The notes under the pieces: generated by a model
What the model was told of the DNA's origin: nothing
The model's database searches: none
The model's input: only the letters and a program-made list of their open reading frames with translations
From: an uncultured Nitrospira sp.
GTDB taxonomy: Bacteria; Nitrospirota; Nitrospiria; Nitrospirales; Nitrospiraceae
Direction: 5' to 3'
NCBI GenBank assembly: GCA_902500785.1
Contig: CABVRW010000012.1
Coordinates: 1 to 64,000 of the forward strand
DNA: 64,000 nt
Part shown: piece by piece, positions 18,621-30,921 of the stretch
Layout of the letters: every line of letters begins with the position of its first letter
How positions within the stretch are numbered: position 1 is the first letter of the stretch
Made by a program: the position numbers and the translations under genes

Positions 18621-19805
18621 TTACATCATGTCATTGCAGGCCTGTTGAGATGTCTCTGCCTCGACACGTCGGAGAAAGTCCTGGCACGCAGTACGGATGG
18701 TCGCCGGCCCTCGCCGCACATCGCTTCCGAGAATAAAGACCAGGTCTCGACCATAAATTGTGCCCATCTCACGAATGCGCGACGCGGTCATTCTTCCGGC
18801 AGCGGTCGGAAAGATAGGCGGGAATGGGCCGAGTGTGCGCCGACAGGAAGCGGCGATCTGCCGACAATCGGTTTCCGAAATCGGGTAGGTCAAACCGAAG
18901 GTAGGATAGATGGAAACGTCGGCGCCGGCCAGTCTGGGGAGGAGTCCAAATAGGAGAGAGGGAGTGAGGCCGCTGTCCGGTGAGACGTAGTGACTCCCGA
19001 GAAAGTCCGGGTGCGCGATGAGTGGCAGTGACAGCGAGGCGAGCTGCGCAAGCGAGGCCATGGCGTCAAAGCCGGTCAGGCCAGGACAGATCAACAGCGC
19101 CCCTGCCCCCGACGTCTGGGCCAGACCGGCCTGTTCCAGGATGACGGGCCAGGCGCCGGAGACATGCGGGGCATAGAGGCAGCGTTTTCCGGTTTGGCGC
19201 GAGGCTTCGGCGACGGCTGCTGCACAGCGAGCGACCCGCTCCCCAAATCGGCAGAAGGGGTGATCGCGCAAACTTTGGTCGTCCTTAATCAGATCGACTC
19301 CGCCGAGGGCAAACTCCCGGGCGAGAGCAGCCAGTTCCCGCGGAGGAAGCCCGAGCGGTTTCAGCACCGCGCACACCAATGGGCGTCGTGGCACCTGGAG
19401 CAGGTCGCGCAGGCCTTGCGAGCCGAAGCGCGGGCCCGTCATCCGGGCGACGATCTCGTTGGGCAGCGACAGGTCGGTGACGCGGAGTTGTCCTTGCAGG
19501 CCGGCCATACCGGAGGTCATATGAAGCAGGGCGCTCATGGTGCCGTCAAGGAGTTCGGTAGGAAAACTGATGACCGCCCGGTGAGACTCGGGACTGAGTG
19601 TTTCGAGATGAACCACATGACCCAACAGCTGCTCTCGAATTACTCCGGGAGGAATGACGTGATCGGCGGCTTCGACGGTTTGGTCGATGCAAATCAGATC
19701 TGCTCGCCTGCGCGCATCTGAGGCTGACCCATGGAATTGATACTCCACAGAAAAGCGCTCTCCAGAAAGCTGAAGATGGTTATTCCCTGGTGAATCGGTC
19801 GGCAT
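18621..19805 (-). CDS. RuBisCO-like protein (form IV)
   Basis: A 394-residue member of the RuBisCO large-subunit superfamily: N-terminal alpha/beta domain (FSVEYQFHGSASDARRRADL, AVISFPTELL), then the TIM barrel with VCAVLKPLGLPP (Lys175 equivalent), GGVDLIKDDQSL (Lys201 and Asp203 equivalents) and LPLIAHPDF (His294). By eye the metal ligand Glu204 is Gln, Lys177 is Leu, the catalytic loop-6 Lys334 is absent (GADVSIYPTFGLTYP), Asn123 is missing (TSGMAGLQG), and two phosphate-loop glycine pairs are altered (AAGRM, LGSDV). It cannot be a CO2-fixing enzyme. Form IV proteins include sulphur-salvage enolases/isomerases, but no methionine-salvage genes are adjacent, so the reaction is unknown. An AAGGGA precedes the ATG. 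Confidence 0.88.
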   Translation of the reverse strand: MPTDSPGNNHLQLSGERFSVEYQFHGSASDARRRADLICIDQTVEAADHVIPPGVIREQLLGHVVHLETLSPESHRAVISFPTELLDGTMSALLHMTSGMAGLQGQLRVTDLSLPNEIVARMTGPRFGSQGLRDLLQVPRRPLVCAVLKPLGLPPRELAALAREFALGGVDLIKDDQSLRDHPFCRFGERVARCAAAVAEASRQTGKRCLYAPHVSGAWPVILEQAGLAQTSGAGALLICPGLTGFDAMASLAQLASLSLPLIAHPDFLGSHYVSPDSGLTPSLLFGLLPRLAGADVSIYPTFGLTYPISETDCRQIAASCRRTLGPFPPIFPTAAGRMTASRIREMGTIYGRDLVFILGSDVRRGPATIRTACQDFLRRVEAETSQQACNDMM

Positions 19806-21259: not shown

Positions 21260-22426
21260 CTAGCAGCGCGACAGCAGTTTCTCATTCCGGTGCCATTGCG
21301 AAACCATACCGCTCGTGTCGGTAAGTTCCAGCTTATCCTGAGCCAACACCTGTACCGACAGGGGAGGGGTTTTGCTCTGGGGGATGAGCAGGCGGAACCG
21401 ATTCTGTTCCGGCTCGATCCGGCCTGTCTGGATCGTGGCCTTGTAGAATTCAGACACGTTGGCGGAGGTGATCGTCCACACGAATTCTTCCTGGCGATCG
21501 ACGTACTTGGCCGATCCTTCCCAGGTTCCCACAAGCGCCGGTTCCACCGGCGTCAGCCGCTTGACTGTCATCTTGCGAGGGCTGGTGTCGAAGGATTGCC
21601 AGAGCAGCGGGTCGAATTTATTCGGTCCCTGATTTTTCGCGAGCTTCTCCCAGGTCACACTCAGCACTCCGGTCGTGGAGAATCGGTCGCTTCCGGCCAG
21701 TTGATAGGTTCCGTGCAGAATCTCTTGGTAGGACTCGGCCTCCCAGCGTCCCCGGTCCGCCGTCACTGTGCCCGGCATCAGCACGGCAGTGGTCAGAGTC
21801 CAGGTGCCCGCTTCGCTCAAGGCGAGATGGCCCTTCCCGTACATCATTCCGACCGGCAGGCAGCCATACCAATCACCGGTCCATTGCGAGGCGGTGGTTG
21901 TCGGACGTGGTTCCGTCGCGGTCGCGGGATGTGCGCGAAGTGGTCCGTCGAGTCGGGTCGCAGCCACTTTTGCGAGGGTGGTCATGGCCGCCTCTGCGTT
22001 CGCTTGTTTTGGAGAGGAGAGAGAGAGCGTCACGAGCGCATCGGCCTTCAAGAACGTCAATTGAATGCCGCCGATGGGAGACCGCAGGGTAAAGGCTCCG
22101 TCGCCGACCCCGGGAATCGGCTGGTGACCGACCTTGGAGCGCTGATCGTGAAAGAGGCTTTTCTTGTCCCCGTCAGGTCCGGGGTTCAGCTCGACCGTCA
22201 CCGTCTCTTGGGGATTGCGCTTCGCCTGGTAGAGGCACTGGCGATCAGTTTGAGGCAGGCCAGGCGTGACGGGGGTTCCGATGGCTAGCTCGACCTCGGC
22301 TTCCGTCACGATCAAGCATGCATTGAGATTCGTTGAGATGCCCTCGGAGGACTGCGAGCACCCGACCAGGGCAGTCAATCCAACGAGGAGGCATAGGGGC
22401 GATGGTATTGCGGTGAAGGACGCCAT
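21260..22426 (-). CDS. Putative lipoprotein of unknown function
   Basis: A 388-residue protein with a lipoprotein signal (LCLLVGLTALVGC, lipobox cysteine at about residue 23). The N-terminal mature part (CLIVTEAEVELAIGTPVT, RQCLYQ, then VPGVGDGAF-like text) resembles DUF3558-type lipoproteins in having a conserved disulfide-like Cys pair around a helix; this is a weak likeness. The C-terminal half contains two beta-rich units, each with a WxGxW start: TASQWTGDWYGCLPVGM and PALVGTWEGSAKYVDRQEE, the second followed by KATIQTGRIEPEQNRF. These look like small calycin-like or lipocalin-like modules. It is transcribed toward the small exported protein at 20806-21210. Confidence 0.7.
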   Translation of the reverse strand: MASFTAIPSPLCLLVGLTALVGCSQSSEGISTNLNACLIVTEAEVELAIGTPVTPGLPQTDRQCLYQAKRNPQETVTVELNPGPDGDKKSLFHDQRSKVGHQPIPGVGDGAFTLRSPIGGIQLTFLKADALVTLSLSSPKQANAEAAMTTLAKVAATRLDGPLRAHPATATEPRPTTTASQWTGDWYGCLPVGMMYGKGHLALSEAGTWTLTTAVLMPGTVTADRGRWEAESYQEILHGTYQLAGSDRFSTTGVLSVTWEKLAKNQGPNKFDPLLWQSFDTSPRKMTVKRLTPVEPALVGTWEGSAKYVDRQEEFVWTITSANVSEFYKATIQTGRIEPEQNRFRLLIPQSKTPPLSVQVLAQDKLELTDTSGMVSQWHRNEKLLSRC

Positions 22427-22626: not shown

Positions 22627-23046
22627 TTAGGCTGGAACAAATTTCAACGCAAGGCCGTTGATGCAATATCGCAGTCCCGTGGGCTTGGGGCCATCATCGA
22701 AGATATGTCCCTGATGGCCGCCGCAGCGAGCACAGTGGACTTCGACCCGGGTCATGAAAAATTTTGAATCCGTGCGGGTGTCTACCACCTTGGGATCGAT
22801 GGGTTGCCAAAAGCTGGGCCAGCCGGTCCCGCTGTCAAACTTATGTTCCGAGGAATAAGCCGGAAGGTCACAGCCCGCGCAGTGGTAGATGCCGGTCTGG
22901 TGATTCTCGTGGAGCGGACTCGAAAAGGCGCGCTCGGTGTCTTCATGCCGCAAGACTTTATAGGCGGCGGGCGACAGCAATTTTTTCCATTCGTCGTCGG
23001 TCTTGGTCACCGGGGTGATTTCCCCGATGTCAATTTTAGGCGGCAT
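22627..23046 (-). CDS. msrB: Peptide-methionine (R)-S-oxide reductase
   Basis: Repairs oxidised methionine (R-sulfoxide) in proteins using thioredoxin. The 139-residue product carries the two zinc CxxC motifs (YHCAGCDLPAY and HCARCGGHQGH), the substrate-binding FDSGTGWPSFWQP and the catalytic cysteine in GLRYCINGLALKF. The frame is open to 23100, but the ATG at 23046 follows AAGGAGA and gives the usual length; no signal peptide is present, so it is cytoplasmic. It sits between an envelope lipoprotein gene and lon on the same strand, consistent with a general protein-quality role. Confidence 0.95.
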   Translation of the reverse strand: MPPKIDIGEITPVTKTDDEWKKLLSPAAYKVLRHEDTERAFSSPLHENHQTGIYHCAGCDLPAYSSEHKFDSGTGWPSFWQPIDPKVVDTRTDSKFFMTRVEVHCARCGGHQGHIFDDGPKPTGLRYCINGLALKFVPA

Positions 23047-23239
23047 GGGCAATCTCCTTCCGATCGTTGCAGGACGTGCCTCTGAGTCGACCAGGAACAT
23101 TTATCCTGACATAAGTCTGTACGGAACGGCAAGGCAAGCGGATGGATCGTGAGCGGATCGACACAATGCCGCGCGGTCAGGCCGATCACGCGCGGGGCTC
23201 TACGTATGGGCCCCGGCCTTGCAGCCGGAGCCCGAAGTG

Positions 23240-25636
23240 TTACGATGCGGTGGAGGTGGCCAACGGTTCCCCTCGTTCTGGCGAAGACGCCGAATCCTGA
23301 TTGAACGCCGCCGGCAGCACCTCTTCAATCCGTTCCACAGGAATGACCGTGAGTTCATCCCGCACGTCTTGCGGCACTTCTTTCAAATCTTTCTCGTTGG
23401 CCTTCGGCAGAATGATCCGGCGAATGCCGGCGCGATGGGCGGCGAGGACTTTTTCCTTGATGCCGCCGACCGGCAGGACCAACCCGGTCAGGCTGATTTC
23501 TCCGGTCATCGCCGTGTCGCTGCGTACCGGCTTGCCGACATAGGCCGAAGCCAGCGCGGTGGCCATCGTAATGCCGGCCGAGGGGCCGTCTTTGGGAATG
23601 GCCCCCGACGGGACGTGAATGTGGACCCCGTTGCGTTTGAAGCGCGAGATATCGAGTCCCATGCTCTCGGCATGCGACCAGAGGTAGCTGCGCGCCGCGC
23701 GAGCGGATTCCTGCATGACATCGCCCAATTGTCCCGTGAGCGTCAGCTCGTGACTGCCTGGCAACAGGGTGGTTTCGATATACAGTACGTCACCACCCGT
23801 CGGAGTCCAGGCCAGACCTGTGGCCACTCCGGCCGGCAAGTGCTTTCGTGCCTCTTCCGGCTGGAAGCGTTCCTGCCCGAGCCACTCGTCCAGGAGTGGT
23901 TGCGTGATTTCGGCCGGGCTGACCGGGGCGTCGGCCGGTCGATCGGCGAAGGTCACGGCGACCTTTCTCGTGATGCGGCCCAACATTTGCTCCAGCTGCC
24001 GCACGCCCGACTCCCTGGTATAGCGGCCGATGATATGGTCGAGTACCGTATCGGGCAGATTTACCTCCTCGGCTCGCAGCCCGGCTTCCTTCAATCGTCT
24101 CGGCCAGAGGTACCGCAGGGCGATTTCTCGCTTCTCCCGCTCGCTGTAGCCGTTCAATCGAATGATTTCCATGCGATCGAGCAAGGGCTGCGAGAGGGTC
24201 TCCAGCGTGTTCGCCGTCGTGATGAAAAACACTTTGGACAGATCGAACGGTAAATCGAGATAATGGTCGCGGAACGTATGATTCTGCGCGGGATCCAAAA
24301 TCTCCAACAACGCCGCCGCGGGATCGCCGCGGAAATCGCGTCCGAGTTTATCCACTTCGTCCAGCATGATGACCGGATTGTTGACCCCGGCGCGTCGTAC
24401 CGCCTGGATGATGCGGCCGGGAAGGGCGCCGACATAGGTGCGGCGGTGGCCGCGCAGTTCGCCTTCGTCATGCAACCCGCCGAGGCTGAAGCGCTCAAAC
24501 GTGCGCCCCATGGACTTGGCTATGGACTGGCCCAAACTGGTTTTTCCTACCCCGGGAGGCCCGACCAGGCAGAGGATCGGCGCCTTGGCGGTGGGGTTCA
24601 ATTTCAAGACCGCCAGATGTTCCACGATGCGTTCTTTGACTTCCTTGATGCCGTAGTGGTCCTCGTCCAACACCGTGCGGACATAGGACAGGTCCAGGCC
24701 TTCTTCCGAGGACTTGTTCCACGGCAATTCGAGCACCAGTTCCAGGTAGCTCCGGATCACCTGATGTTCGGGCGACGCGCTCGGCGTCTTGGCGAGACGC
24801 GCCAATTCACGATCGGTTTCCTTCCGCACCGCCTCGGGAAGATCGGCCTCTTGAATTTTCGTTCTCAGCGCGCCGACGTCATCCTCTTCCCCCGTGCTTT
24901 CGCCCAGTTCCTGCTGAATCGTCTTCAGCTGCTCTCGCAGCAGATATTCCCGCTGCGTCTTGCCTAACTTTTCCCTCGCTTCGCCGGCGATCTTGTCGCG
25001 CAACTGCAGAATTTGAACCTCGCGGGACAGGGCCGCATAGAGTCCGCGCAGGAGATCCGCGCGGGTGGCGGCCGCGAGCAACTGCTGTTCGCCGTCCAAC
25101 GTGAGATTCAGCAACGACGCGATACGGTAGGCCAGGAGCACCGGATCTTCTTCCGTGCCCAGCGCCGCCACGGCTTCGTGCACGCCGGGCGTCTGAATCA
25201 GTTTCGGCAGTTCGGTGATGATGTCCAGGATCGCCCGATGCAGCGCCTCGACTTCCGTGCTCTGCTCACTCGGAGGTGGCAGCTGTTTTACGCGGGCTTG
25301 CAGATACGGATCGACTTGGTCGAGCTTCAGCAGCACGACACGCTCCAGGCCCTGGATCAGGATATTGTAATGCCCCTCCGGTGTACGGACCGTCTGTTTG
25401 ATGACGGCCTTGGTCCCAATGGGATAGAGATCTTCCAGCGTCGGCTGATCGGTTTGCGCATCCCGCTGGGCTACCACGAGCAACGTTTTATCTTCGGTTT
25501 TCAAGGCTGCGTCCACGGCCGCAACGGAACGGTCCCGCCCGACGGTCAAGGGCATCATCGTGCCGGGGAACAGCACGGTTCGCTTCAACGGGACAATGGG
25601 CAGGTTCGTAAGTATCGGGGCGTTGGAATCAGTCAT
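23240..25636 (-). CDS. lon: ATP-dependent Lon protease
   Basis: Hexameric AAA+ serine protease that degrades misfolded and regulatory proteins. The 798-residue product has the LonN substrate-binding domain (LPIVPLKRTVLFPGTMMPL), the long coiled-coil, the Walker A GPPGVGKTSLGQS near residue 360, Walker B IMLDEVDKL, and the LonC protease domain with catalytic Ser in PKDGPSAGITM near 685 and Lys in GIKEKVLAAHRAG near 728. Residue spacing agrees with LonA. GGAGGA lies just upstream of the ATG. The gene is followed by msrB on the same strand after a gap of about 190 bp. Confidence 0.97.
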   Translation of the reverse strand: MTDSNAPILTNLPIVPLKRTVLFPGTMMPLTVGRDRSVAAVDAALKTEDKTLLVVAQRDAQTDQPTLEDLYPIGTKAVIKQTVRTPEGHYNILIQGLERVVLLKLDQVDPYLQARVKQLPPPSEQSTEVEALHRAILDIITELPKLIQTPGVHEAVAALGTEEDPVLLAYRIASLLNLTLDGEQQLLAAATRADLLRGLYAALSREVQILQLRDKIAGEAREKLGKTQREYLLREQLKTIQQELGESTGEEDDVGALRTKIQEADLPEAVRKETDRELARLAKTPSASPEHQVIRSYLELVLELPWNKSSEEGLDLSYVRTVLDEDHYGIKEVKERIVEHLAVLKLNPTAKAPILCLVGPPGVGKTSLGQSIAKSMGRTFERFSLGGLHDEGELRGHRRTYVGALPGRIIQAVRRAGVNNPVIMLDEVDKLGRDFRGDPAAALLEILDPAQNHTFRDHYLDLPFDLSKVFFITTANTLETLSQPLLDRMEIIRLNGYSEREKREIALRYLWPRRLKEAGLRAEEVNLPDTVLDHIIGRYTRESGVRQLEQMLGRITRKVAVTFADRPADAPVSPAEITQPLLDEWLGQERFQPEEARKHLPAGVATGLAWTPTGGDVLYIETTLLPGSHELTLTGQLGDVMQESARAARSYLWSHAESMGLDISRFKRNGVHIHVPSGAIPKDGPSAGITMATALASAYVGKPVRSDTAMTGEISLTGLVLPVGGIKEKVLAAHRAGIRRIILPKANEKDLKEVPQDVRDELTVIPVERIEEVLPAAFNQDSASSPERGEPLATSTAS

Positions 25637-25820: not shown

Positions 25821-27932
25821 TCAGCGGTCGATGAAGAGGCTGCCCGCGTTCTCGATATAGGTTTTTCGATTGAGTCGTTCGGGGCGGGCTCCGTTGGTCG
25901 GCGGAGGAAGAGAAGAATAATCGTCCCTTCCCTCAAGGTCGAAAAATGCGCCGATGCCGGCATCCGCACCAAGTCCAAGCCCACGACTGACGGCGTATTG
26001 GTCGGCGCCGCCCTCTTCAATGAACAGTCCCCAACCACTGAGGTCAGCCATACCCAGTCCGGTCGAGGCAGGCAGGTCATAGAAATCGCTCGCCGGGCCG
26101 CCGTCGATCGCCAGCGCGACGCTTTCGTCCCAGGCCGCCCCCCCGTTATAAAAGGGACCTTTGGAGCCATACCGGTCCTTATCTTGGTAATCGATGTGCA
26201 AACCCACGCCGAAGTGCGCGGCGGTTCCTTGACCATAACGGGCGGCTTGGTGCTCGTCGTCACCGCGCAGATCCAGTTTCACGCCGAGGCCGAAAAAATA
26301 CCCGTGCCCCTGAGAGAAGTTGGCGCTGTGATACCGGTCACGACCATCCAGATCGATGAAGAGTCCCCACCCACCGGCCAAACTCTGCGCGCGCTGCGCC
26401 GGGAGTTTGCTGAAGACACGGAGTCCCGATCCGGTTCCAAGCCCGAAGCAATCGTATTGAAACGCTGCGTCGTGCGGTTGCGCCTGCGGGGCCTCAGTTT
26501 CATTGTAGGCGCTGGGATAACGCCCACCACAGTCGTAGGAATCGTTACCGGATACATCGATGAGGGCGCCGACGCCCAATGGAGCGCCGAAGCCCAACGC
26601 ATAGCCGAAGCTCGTGTACCGGTCGTCGCCCGCGCGATCCACCAGCAAGCCAAACCCGCCGAAGGCCGCGCCTTGGGTGAACCGGTTCCCTTCATAGATA
26701 TCCTGTCCTTCTCCATCATACAGGATACCAAGCCCCGCGAGGCCCACGCCCCCGGAGCCGGGCGCCAAGCGGTAGATATCGTCGCCGCTGTGGTCGATGA
26801 CGACCCCGATTCCAGCTCGACCCGTGGCGAGGCCCAGCGGAGCCGGCTGATACAGATCGTTCCCGCTCAGGTCGATGACCACGCTGTTGCCCAGATCGCC
26901 GTTCGGACTGGCACCGACAAGGCCGCGGTAGGTGTCGTTGCCGCCGAGATCGATGATCAGCGCGGCGCCCTGATCGAGGTCGTAGGTGTTCGGGCCCCGG
27001 CCTCCCACCACCAGCAGTCCGTAGGACGTGTGCTCAATCAGGAGCAGATCTCCGGTGATGCCGGAAACGGTTTGGACGATCGGGTTCCGATTGTGGAAGG
27101 CAATATCCAATTGTTGCAAAAATTTCCGATTGCCGAGCCGCGCCAACCGTTGCGCGGCACTGATGAGCGACGCATAGTCGATCTGCTGCATGAGGAGAGT
27201 CGCGTATCGGGCCGTGGCTTCGGCGTCCGAGAGGTGCATGGGTGGCGTGACTTGGGGACTGAACCGTTCCACCAGGGGGCGTGCTTGCGTGAAGATGAAC
27301 TCCCGGTCCTGCGGAGACAGATGGCGTAGCGCATGTTCACGATCCTGATAGGCATCTTCGAGGGCTTCCATGATAAAGCCGAGCACGTCCTCGCGCGCGA
27401 GGGTGGCAGGAAAAATCAGCGGCCTGAACGGTGCGCCGGTGCGATCCATGCCCCCTTCAAGGATGTCGATCACGGCCGGAAGTCCCTCGACGCCTGACTC
27501 GGCCGCGGTGGCCGCGAGGAGGCCGGCCTGCTCGATTGCGGCCAGGCCCTCCCACGGATCGGTGAGCGCGCGCAGGACCAGGCCTTGTTTGAACTTGGCT
27601 ATTTTGTTCGTCTGGTCGGCCAGGCTTGCGCGAACCGCCGGGAGAGTCCTCGTGAGGTTATCGCGGAGCTCCGGCTCGACGACGGCTTTCAGCCGCGTCA
27701 CAATCGCCTGTTGTTGTCGATCCACTGGGTGGTCGGCGGATTCGGTAACGGCAAACAGGTGTCCGAGTTGTGCGCAGCCGCCGAGGAGAAGCCAGAGACT
27801 CATGGTGAGCAGCAGGCCCAGCGGTCGATGCAGGATGCCATAAAAAGTGGTGTTCGTCCGACGCTGGTAGGGGACGCCCAGACAGGGGCTGAGTGGTGGG
27901 GTGCGGAGCGGCGGCGAGCTTGTTGCCATCAC
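25821..27932 (-). CDS. Lipoprotein with a 26-residue G-x-D-x-Y repeat, function unknown
   Basis: A 703-residue protein with an N-terminal lipoprotein-type signal (RPLGLLLTMSLWLLLGGC, lipobox Cys53). Residues 70-300 are helical. From about 307 to 675 there is a regular repeat ending in G-[ND]-D-x-Y: GNDTY 331, GNDLY 357, GDDIY 383, GQDIY 409, GDDRY 435, GNDSY 462, GRDRY 530, GDDEH 557, DKDRY 584, ASDFY 614, GADQY 642 and GRDDY 668. Spacing is 26-30 residues except for one 68-residue insert. Each unit has G-[LIV]-x-[LIV]-D before the motif, like a beta-solenoid with acidic, possibly Ca2+-binding, turns. It starts 36 bp after otsA on the same strand, so they are probably co-transcribed. I do not recognise a named family. 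The exact start is uncertain (27932 or 27929). Confidence 0.75.
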   Translation of the reverse strand: MMATSSPPLRTPPLSPCLGVPYQRRTNTTFYGILHRPLGLLLTMSLWLLLGGCAQLGHLFAVTESADHPVDRQQQAIVTRLKAVVEPELRDNLTRTLPAVRASLADQTNKIAKFKQGLVLRALTDPWEGLAAIEQAGLLAATAAESGVEGLPAVIDILEGGMDRTGAPFRPLIFPATLAREDVLGFIMEALEDAYQDREHALRHLSPQDREFIFTQARPLVERFSPQVTPPMHLSDAEATARYATLLMQQIDYASLISAAQRLARLGNRKFLQQLDIAFHNRNPIVQTVSGITGDLLLIEHTSYGLLVVGGRGPNTYDLDQGAALIIDLGGNDTYRGLVGASPNGDLGNSVVIDLSGNDLYQPAPLGLATGRAGIGVVIDHSGDDIYRLAPGSGGVGLAGLGILYDGEGQDIYEGNRFTQGAAFGGFGLLVDRAGDDRYTSFGYALGFGAPLGVGALIDVSGNDSYDCGGRYPSAYNETEAPQAQPHDAAFQYDCFGLGTGSGLRVFSKLPAQRAQSLAGGWGLFIDLDGRDRYHSANFSQGHGYFFGLGVKLDLRGDDEHQAARYGQGTAAHFGVGLHIDYQDKDRYGSKGPFYNGGAAWDESVALAIDGGPASDFYDLPASTGLGMADLSGWGLFIEEGGADQYAVSRGLGLGADAGIGAFFDLEGRDDYSSLPPPTNGARPERLNRKTYIENAGSLFIDR

Positions 27933-27968: not shown

Positions 27969-29495
27969 TTATTCACGAGAGCGACTGTCATTGGATGGGA
28001 GGCTTCCGGCATCCCGCAGGCACTCGTCCGACCAGGCCCGAATGTCGTGGGTCTCAAGATAGGCCCGCATGCGACGCATGCGGTGTCGGCGTTCCTCCAC
28101 AGGCATTTCAATGGCCTGGCGAATGGCGTCGGCAACCCCCTCGAGGTCGTAGGGATTGATGACCAAGGCATCGGTCAGTTCCTCCGCCGCGCCGGCCAGG
28201 TGGCTCACCAGCAGCACGCCCTGTTCGTCGACCTGGCTGGCGACATACTCCTTGGCGACTAGATTCATGCCGTCGTACACGGAACTCACCAGGGCGAGAT
28301 CCGCCATTCGGTAGTAGGCGGCCAAGGTGTTCATGCCGATGCGTCCTTCACGGAATTCGATCGGGCGCCAGCGCGATGCCTGAGGGCTTCCGAGGTCGGA
28401 GATGCTGCCGTAACGCATATTGATATCGTTGACGGTTTCACGGATGAGTTCACGGTAGCTGCGATAGGCCTCGACATCGCCTCTGGTCGGCACAGCGATC
28501 TGAATGAAGGTGAAGCGGCCTCGATAGTGAGGGTACTGCTCGAAGAAGGCATCCACCGCCCACAACCGCTTGAGGAGCCCCTTGGTATAGTCCAGGCGAT
28601 CGACGCCCAGCCCGATGCGGATCTCGGGTTGAAAGACATGCAGATTGCGCAAGACATCCATCGCGCGCACGACTTGCGATGAGTGGGCCCGTTCGGACCA
28701 AGCCTGAAAACTGACACTGATCGGCCTGGCCACGAGCCGCGTCGTATGGCCTTTGTAGTCGATCTGGTGACCATCGCTCCGGACGTCGGCGCCCAGGAAT
28801 TCCTTTGCGCATTCGACAAAACAATGGAGAAAATTTCTCGTCTGGAACATCGCCAGGTCGCTGGCCAGCAGCGATTCGAGCAGTTCCCGACGTTCGGGCA
28901 ATATGCGAAATGCGTCGGGACCGGGCCAAGGCGTATGCCAGAAGACCGCGACCGGCTGGCTTGGCAGCGAGGCCTTGATCAGCCCGGGGAGCAGGGCCAG
29001 GTGGAAGTCGTGAATCCAGACAAAGCCGGACTTGTCGCCTAACTCATCAAGGACGACCGCCGCGAACTTCGCGTTCATGGCTTGGTAGGCGTGCCAAAAC
29101 GACTTCCGATAGGCCACACGGTCCAACGTGAGATGGCATAAGGGCCAGAGCACCTGGTTGGCATAGCCCTGATAGCCGCCTTTGATCTCAGACGCGTCCA
29201 GCCAGACGCGGCGTAGCCGATAGGTCGGGGCGTCGGGAGGCACTTCCACGACCATGTCTTGGTCCACCACGTCGCGGTCCGATTTGCCGCTGCCCCAAGC
29301 AATCCATGTGCCGCCGAGCCGCCGCATGACCGGATCGAGTGCCGACGTCAGGCCGCCGGACGTTCGTTCCCAGATCAGGTGATTTTTGATCAGCCGATGT
29401 TCGTACGGCTCTCGATTGGAGACCATGATGAGGCGTGACAGGGAGAGATCGCTCTCCGGCTGCAGTTCTTCGAGGGGAGCGTGAGACGGACTCAT
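27969..29495 (-). CDS. otsA: Alpha,alpha-trehalose-phosphate synthase (GT20 family)
   Basis: Joins glucose from a nucleotide-sugar to glucose-6-phosphate to make trehalose-6-phosphate, an osmotic and desiccation protectant. The 508-residue product has the GT20 landmarks: MVSNREPYEHR, TSGGLTSALDPVMRRLGGTW, WIHDFHLALLPGL, FWHTPWPGPDAFRILP, GVDRLDYTKGLLKRLWAVD and DGMNLVAKEYVASQ. No OtsB phosphatase is adjacent. A glucosylglycerol-phosphate synthase, a close GT20 relative, cannot be excluded by eye. The repeat lipoprotein gene follows at 36 bp. Confidence 0.88.
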   Translation of the reverse strand: MSPSHAPLEELQPESDLSLSRLIMVSNREPYEHRLIKNHLIWERTSGGLTSALDPVMRRLGGTWIAWGSGKSDRDVVDQDMVVEVPPDAPTYRLRRVWLDASEIKGGYQGYANQVLWPLCHLTLDRVAYRKSFWHAYQAMNAKFAAVVLDELGDKSGFVWIHDFHLALLPGLIKASLPSQPVAVFWHTPWPGPDAFRILPERRELLESLLASDLAMFQTRNFLHCFVECAKEFLGADVRSDGHQIDYKGHTTRLVARPISVSFQAWSERAHSSQVVRAMDVLRNLHVFQPEIRIGLGVDRLDYTKGLLKRLWAVDAFFEQYPHYRGRFTFIQIAVPTRGDVEAYRSYRELIRETVNDINMRYGSISDLGSPQASRWRPIEFREGRIGMNTLAAYYRMADLALVSSVYDGMNLVAKEYVASQVDEQGVLLVSHLAGAAEELTDALVINPYDLEGVADAIRQAIEMPVEERRHRMRRMRAYLETHDIRAWSDECLRDAGSLPSNDSRSRE

Positions 29496-29736: not shown

Positions 29737-30921
29737 TCAGCGCTGATCGGCGGCTCCGATCTGCGGGCGTGGTTTTCTGAGGCTGCCGGCCACCATGCGA
29801 AATTCGAAGAGGCGGCATTCGATCGCCCCGTTGAAGAGTGGGACACGACGGGAAGGGGCCAGGCGCAACTGTCCGGGCAGTTTCAAGTCGGCCGTAAAGA
29901 TGTGCACCGTCCAGCCACAGAAGTGTTTTTTTAGATGGTCGCCAAACGGTGGATAGAAGGTGCGCAGGGTCTCCCCCTCTCCCATGCGGTGGCCGTAGGG
30001 AGGGTTCGTGACGAGGAGGCCGGCCTCGGCCGGGGCGGGAAGCTGCAGGACATCCCCCTGCTGAAGCGTGACGGCCTCGCTGCTCCCGGCGACGGTGAGA
30101 TTGGCTTTGATCGACGCAATCGCATGCGCGCTGTGATCGGCCGCGTGGATCAGGCCCGGCTCAACAGGGAGTTCCGCGGCCTGCAGCTCCGCACGCAGAT
30201 CGTTCAGTAGCCGAGGATCGCAGACGAGCAGTTTTTCGAACGCGAAATGCCGGCCCATACCGGGAGCGACTCGGCGTGCCATCAACGCGGCCTCGATGAC
30301 AAACGTTCCGCTGCCGCACATGGGATCGTAGAGCAGGGTGCCCGGCGTCCACTTCGCGAGGCGCAGGATGCCGGCCGCCAGATTTTCTCTGATCGGCGCA
30401 TCTCCGGCCGACTTTCGCCAGCCCCGTTTGAACAGCGGCTCGCCGGACGTATCCAGATAGAAGGTGCAGGTGGTCGTATCCAAGTACACCGCGATCAGCA
30501 TGTCCGGCGCGTGGGTGTCCACCGTCGGGCGCTTGCCCCGTGCAAATTGGAATCGATCGCAGACGGCATCCTTCACCCGCAGGGTGACAAAATCCAAACT
30601 CTTCAGCGGACAGTGGTGCGCGCTCACCTTCACCTTGATTGTCTGTTGCGGAGTGAACCAATCCTGCCAGCGGATCGCCTTGGCCGCGTCATACACATCG
30701 TGCTCGTCGCGATAGGAGCCCTCGGCGATACGTAGGAGGATACGGCTGGCGATACGGCTTTGCAGATTCACTCGATAACAGAGGGCGAAGGGACCGCGAA
30801 AGGCGACTCCACCGGCCGTGGCCTCCACGTCGGAAGCGCCCAGGTGGGTGAGTTCGTCGACGAGGACGGCTTCGAGTCCGCGAGGGCAGGGTGCAAAGAA
30901 GGCGTGGTTTGTGCTATCCAT
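29737..30921 (-). CDS. THUMP-domain class I SAM-dependent RNA methyltransferase
   Basis: Predicted rRNA/tRNA guanine methyltransferase (RlmL/Trm14/YpsC-like). The N-terminal part (FFAPCPRGLEAVLVDELTHL, GVAFRG, AKAIRWQDW) is a ferredoxin-like plus THUMP RNA-binding region, followed by the typical SLDFVTLRVKDAVCDRF and DTSGEPLFKRGWR. The methyltransferase fold shows LAKWTPGTLLYDPMCGSGTF (SAM-binding) and VTNPPYGHRMGEG, the NPPY motif for N2-guanine methylation, near residue 305. The 394-residue length fits single-domain YpsC-like members. The ATG lies only 34 bp from the divergent NUDIX start. Confidence 0.9.
   Translation of the reverse strand: MDSTNHAFFAPCPRGLEAVLVDELTHLGASDVEATAGGVAFRGPFALCYRVNLQSRIASRILLRIAEGSYRDEHDVYDAAKAIRWQDWFTPQQTIKVKVSAHHCPLKSLDFVTLRVKDAVCDRFQFARGKRPTVDTHAPDMLIAVYLDTTTCTFYLDTSGEPLFKRGWRKSAGDAPIRENLAAGILRLAKWTPGTLLYDPMCGSGTFVIEAALMARRVAPGMGRHFAFEKLLVCDPRLLNDLRAELQAAELPVEPGLIHAADHSAHAIASIKANLTVAGSSEAVTLQQGDVLQLPAPAEAGLLVTNPPYGHRMGEGETLRTFYPPFGDHLKKHFCGWTVHIFTADLKLPGQLRLAPSRRVPLFNGAIECRLFEFRMVAGSLRKPRPQIGAADQR

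Follow-up and report, generated by a model that had tools for sequence, protein, structure and literature searches.

A lipoprotein gene in a 3.9 Mb Nitrospira genome encodes a repeat that is real and that is not in the libraries searched (Pfam, NCBIfam, and PDB sequences); the sequence suggests that the protein is most aptly classed among beta-solenoids, with a single acidic turn in each coil. We analyzed the gene within a window of 64 kb, by which we mean the whole stretch of DNA under study. The explanation that we favor, tentatively and with doubt still slightly ahead of belief, is that the product is an outer-membrane lipoprotein in which a helical N-terminal domain is followed by a C-terminal beta-solenoid with Ca2+-type carboxylate ladders, and that it serves as an envelope scaffold or receptor, this last role being our best guess.

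The solenoid-repeat gene is present as a single copy in its own genome and reads from a GTG at 27932 to a stop at 25821, which places it on the minus strand (Table 1). The initial annotation had the coordinates right, and the 36 bp that it gave between the otsA stop and the start of the gene match the gene positions. Its lipoprotein call also stands, as a hydrophobic segment leads into the lipobox LLLGGC, the pattern expected for signal peptidase II, with the lipobox at residues 50−53 and the codon for Cys53 at 27774−27776. In the family alignment, the lipobox Cys is found in 46 of 46 Nitrospiraceae homologs and residue +2 is never Asp. This signal predicts an outer-membrane lipoprotein. The claim of a surface protein fared less well, given that the prediction is for the outer membrane and that the PDZ domain of distant relatives makes the periplasm at least as likely a location.

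Table 1. Features of the solenoid-repeat gene and its neighbors, in window coordinates
Feature	Position	Strand	Remarks
Solenoid-repeat lipoprotein gene	25821..27932	−	703 codons from GTG plus stop; exact start codon uncertain
Signal peptide hydrophobic segment and lipobox LLLGGC	27774..27824	−	residues 37−53; from sequence
Alpha-helical N-terminal domain	27099..27725	−	residues 70−278; AlphaFold2 on 13-sequence alignment, pLDDT about 40−90; common to PDZ-containing relatives
Predicted beta-solenoid	25914..27020	−	residues 305−673; half-unit and twelve DxxGxDxY-type units
Leading half-unit GGxGPNTY			residues 310−317, ahead of the twelve units
Twelve repeat units			first Asp/Glu at residues 328, 354, 380, 406, 432, 459, 527, 554, 581, 610, 639, 665
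Long loop or irregular coil	26379..26534	−	residues 467−518; Cys468 and Cys495 a candidate disulfide; conserved P473, R505
Non-template residues R565, Y566, H573	26214..26240	−	coils 8−9 (with Y545, coil 7); invariant; candidate ligand or active site
otsA, trehalose-6-phosphate synthase (GT20)	27969..29495	−	Pfam PF00982, E 1e-120
RlmL-like THUMP methyltransferase	29737..30921	−	conserved upstream neighbor; profile and synteny
Lon protease	23240..25636	−	conserved downstream neighbor; profile and synteny
MsrB (SelR domain)	22627..23100	−	next conserved downstream neighbor; profile and synteny

The repeat stands out clearly from chance. The motif D..G.D.[YH] occurs in 9 copies, whereas 2000 shuffles gave 0.06 on average and never more than 1, and the self-identity of residues 291−680 has maxima at shifts of 26 and 52. 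The initial annotation had described eleven copies of [LIV]-x-D-x-x-G-[ND]-D-x-Y at a near-constant spacing of 26−28 residues, an observation that was confirmed only in part: the repeat is genuine, while the unit count and the regularity of the spacing need correction. Twelve positions had in fact been listed (331, 357 ... 668), which are the Gly positions of the units, and only five units (starting at 326, 352, 378, 430, and 457) fit that pattern exactly. Eight fit the relaxed form [LIVFA]xDxxGxDxY and two further units fit it once Glu is allowed in place of Asp or His in place of Tyr, whereas those at 581 and 610 are degenerate in the window protein; we grade the twelve as eight strict and four degenerate. 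The spacings are 26, 26, 26, 26, 27, 68, 27, 27, 29, 29, and 26 residues, so that most are indeed 26−27, but the quoted range hid one long interval of 68. That long interval, between 459 and 527, is exactly 52 residues (2 × 26) in all seven PDZ-type relatives, and units 9 to 11 span 28 residues in those relatives versus 58 in Nitrospiraceae, or about one coil fewer. Length differences of nearly whole coils between the groups are steps such as a solenoid allows.

Searches support the claim that no named repeat family applies. The window protein had no match at E values up to 10 among Pfam and NCBIfam models or among PDB sequences, a profile of a 23-member alignment retrieved only helical, coiled-coil-like noise from the PDB, and our literature search found no paper describing the DxxGxDxY repeat motif. 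AlphaFold2, run with 13 closely related sequences, returned helices over residues 70−278 and strand-turn-strand in most units over residues 296−673, a beta-solenoid of low confidence, the mean pLDDT being just 62 whether taken over the full length or over the solenoid by itself. Foldseek searches with these low-confidence models gave no significant match to the PDB or to viral models; PDB entry 3p4g (MpAFP region IV, a one-sided Ca2+ roll) appeared in the lists without significance, ranking second in the first at an E of 1.6. AlphaFold2 is known to yield unrealistic beta-solenoids for repeat sequences and can overpredict this fold (PMC11795689), so the sequence is the firmer basis for the solenoid. 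The interpretation offered with the initial annotation is partly supported: a regular, solenoid-like repeat with acidic turns is present, no known family matches, and the conservation fits a cation ladder. The solenoid prediction has only moderate confidence, and the Ca2+ or carbohydrate binding proposed with it is putative. A knotted solenoid from Brevundimonas (PMC13123833) was set aside as belonging to a different group, its nearest unknotted relatives being pentapeptide repeats.

The solenoid family is widespread in Nitrospiraceae. Exact peptide words from one query sequence placed nearly all close relatives in Nitrospira assemblies, one of them the complete Candidatus Nitrospira defluvii chromosome, and thirteen sequences (that of the window and twelve from a public species collection) align over their full length, with about 80% identity within the genus. 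A first sample had a match in 44 of 246 Nitrospirota genomes; a second, of 396 genomes, had one in each of the 22 genomes listed for the genus of the window. Distant Nitrospirota relatives outside Nitrospiraceae share 24−28% identity and have the helical and solenoid domains too, preceded by a PDZ domain; Pfam matched this PDZ domain in the five distant relatives scanned, whereas the window protein lacks it. Some genomes have lost the gene, with decayed copies in G105 (L049, contig C44), where it lies in separate pieces, and in G133 (L051, contig C11), where only a C-terminal remnant persists between RlmL and Lon. Against plasmid and phage collections, tblastn with the window protein form gave no match and with the PDZ form gave matches in the PDZ region only, mostly to DegP/DegQ-type proteases where annotated. 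A synthetic consensus coil matched nothing among the plasmids, for which the low-complexity filter is possibly responsible, and the family profile matched nothing among viral contigs. PHROGs returned weak matches only, the better one falling in the PDZ region of the PDZ form.

In the genus Nitrospira, the gene order is RlmL-like methyltransferase, otsA, solenoid gene, Lon, and MsrB. It is only in this genus that otsA stands between the RlmL-like gene and the solenoid gene; it is absent from that place in related genera, most of which, among those examined, have RlmL directly before the solenoid gene and Lon or MsrB behind it. In a few related genera neither neighbor is visible in the short stretch examined, and the PDZ-type relatives have unrelated neighbors, as judged from open reading frames. 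The link to trehalose synthesis that had been drawn earlier is therefore lineage-specific and secondary. As Lon, MsrB, and RlmL are normally enzymes of the cytosol, the synteny is weak evidence for function and may mean nothing. Elsewhere in the window, a 388-aa lipoprotein-like gene at 21260−22426 (minus strand) has no Pfam match and is conserved downstream of MsrB in the genus. The minus-strand gene at 18621−19805 encodes a RuBisCO large-chain-like protein (PF00016, E 3e-18) that is probably a RuBisCO-like protein; the genus is thought to fix CO2 via the reductive TCA cycle. On the plus strand, a ShlB/FhaC-type two-partner secretion transporter (783−2522; PF03865, E 2e-23) is followed by an open reading frame of 2027 codons (2728−8811), likely its exported TpsA partner.

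The case for a cation comes from the turn itself. Across 46 family sequences, 10−11 units show essentially no variation at D, G, D, and Y. With the degenerate unit at 610 left out, the 46 Nitrospiraceae sequences provide 506 unit cells, in which the last turn Asp (+5) is invariant (506/506), the first position (0) is Asp in 474 and Glu in 32, position +4 is freely Asn or Asp (171/151), and Tyr at +7 is nearly invariant. Some turns have decayed in the PDZ forms, and the two turn acids are there both kept in 56 cases, both lost in 9, and lost singly in 3 and 9 (Fisher p 4.5e-5, an optimistic figure because related sequences were counted as independent). Acids that are invariant and that are lost jointly suggest that both contribute to one site where carboxylates are required, the simplest candidate being one that holds a divalent cation between coils. 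Cation binding appears to be the best candidate for the mechanism of the turn, and the conservation pattern favors a ladder of cations along one side, comparable to that in the RTX region of the Marinomonas ice-binding protein, without making the protein a member of the RTX family. We give almost no credence to the idea of a genuine RTX protein exported through type I secretion, and the profile and spacing tests ruled out membership in the RTX family. Although the G-x-D-x-hydrophobic turn pattern is held in common and Gly-7 and Asp-9 are found in 91 and 93% of unit cells (46 sequences), Gly-4 is found in 0% and Gly-5 in 10%, the period is 26−27 residues and not that of the nonapeptide (9/18, with 18 residues per coil), and the N-terminus carries a lipoprotein signal. 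The RTX model PF00353 has 26 matches in this genome, every one of them on contig C4 and none in the solenoid gene; a true RTX locus is found there (G000:C4:49210-53834, L083-L090), where the 26 matches fall in two open frames of 1738 and 708 codons. In the RTX motif XUXGGXGXD, Ca2+ is held by carbonyls, including those of Gly-5 and Gly-7, together with the Asp-9 carboxylate (PMC6891781). The first RTX Gly is replaced here by Asp or Glu and the second, the positive-phi residue at position 5, is absent, so the turn cannot be an RTX half-site. The same absence would suit a metal-free beta-solenoid, in which the coils are capped by hydrogen-bonded side-chain ladders of Asp and Tyr, leaving the protein no role beyond that of a rigid spacer or scaffold; the near-invariant Tyr could carry the stacking, and side-chain ladders are common in beta-helices. 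Asn, however, is the usual ladder residue, and it replaces neither acid in any of the 506 cells; the joint loss of both acids in PDZ forms also speaks against this alternative. Two stacked Asp columns would also repel each other without a counterion; RTX Asp carboxylates are 4.8 Å apart and require Ca2+ to offset the repulsion (PMC6891781). We consider the metal-free alternative unlikely.

A further set of conserved residues lies outside the repeat template and bears on what the protein does. R565 and H573 are found in 53 of 53 sequences, Y545 in 52, and Y566 in 51; Cys468 and Cys495 are present in 46 of 46 Nitrospiraceae sequences and absent from the PDZ forms, while P473 and R505 are each present in 44 of 46 and in 7 of 7 PDZ forms. 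Together these residues appear to mark a specific patch on coils 6−9. Asp602 had been considered as an additional invariant residue and was dropped, as two alignments disagree. The patch could belong to an enzyme resembling a beta-helix lyase or hydrolase that acts on polysaccharide of the envelope or outside the cell; R565, H573, and Y545/Y566 would then form its active site, and the conserved loop a lid. The invariant R and H would fit this role, beta-helix lyases and tailspikes populate the nonsignificant Foldseek lists, and one PDZ relative (L044) lies among apparent nucleotide-sugar genes, judged from open reading frame sequences. Nevertheless, an enzyme seems to us quite unlikely, as no Pfam enzyme family matched, the Foldseek TM-scores of 0.1−0.2 amount to no similarity, and the neighbors of the Nitrospiraceae form are not carbohydrate genes, except for the recent otsA. 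More improbable still is a surface adhesin or matrix-binding lipoprotein that works outside the cell, holding Nitrospira microcolonies together or binding ions or polymers of the floc matrix. An outer-membrane-type +2 residue and the likeness to the one-sided Ca2+ rolls of adhesins are consistent with that role, but the PDZ domain of the relatives suggests a periplasmic peptide partner rather than display, and the high identity within the genus is unlike that of fast-evolving adhesins.

In the favored explanation, the lipoprotein scaffold or receptor, the beta-solenoid would have about 13−14 coils, most of 26−27 residues, with one edge of each coil closed by the acidic D-x-x-G-x-D-x-Y turn. 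Stacked on those of neighboring coils, the Asp pairs of the turns would make two carboxylate ladders holding a row of divalent cations, most likely Ca2+. Not until the protein had been exported would these ions lock the rod, much as in RTX beta-rolls and in the Marinomonas one-sided roll. The long loop that separates units 6 and 7, which the candidate disulfide would hold in place in Nitrospiraceae, would combine with Y545, R565, Y566, and H573 into a ligand-binding (or catalytic) patch on a rigid scaffold or receptor in the periplasm or outer membrane, with the PDZ domain of the relatives presumably binding peptides. A bolder and more doubtful proposal is that this is a new kind of Ca2+-ladder solenoid apart from RTX, defined by a 26−27-residue coil and a two-carboxylate DxxGxDxY turn, and used by Nitrospirota as a rigid envelope receptor whose C-terminal coils carry a conserved R/H/Y ligand or active site. 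Nitrospira are the main nitrite oxidizers and include the comammox organisms, and an uncatalogued repeat present in every sampled genome of the genus is a defined target for asking how their envelope is built. A genuine cation ladder would mean that the problem met by RTX proteins, how to confine folding to the space beyond the cytoplasm, has been solved a second time, and it would offer a new rigid scaffold for design.

Several known systems can be compared with the protein. The parallel beta-solenoid class of the right-handed beta-helix enzymes (pectate lyase-like proteins and tailspikes) is suggested only by the low-confidence model, and we know of no acidic turn ladder among those enzymes. 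PDZ-containing periplasmic proteins are connected to the family through the distant relatives alone. With RTX proteins (PF00353, HemolysinCabind, beta-roll) the solenoid shares an acidic turn repeated along the chain, and it may work like them, even though family membership is refuted by profile and spacing. Region IV of the Marinomonas primoryensis ice-binding protein (PDB 3p4g) binds a single Ca2+ in each 19-residue coil, and only along one side (PMC6891781). The solenoid would resemble it in having one Ca2+-type acidic turn per coil and a continuous roll of about a dozen tandem coils with the opposite edge ion-free, and differs from it in its longer coil and in the lack of a sequence match. 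Of the systems compared, this region appears to be the best analogue of the acidic-turn solenoid.
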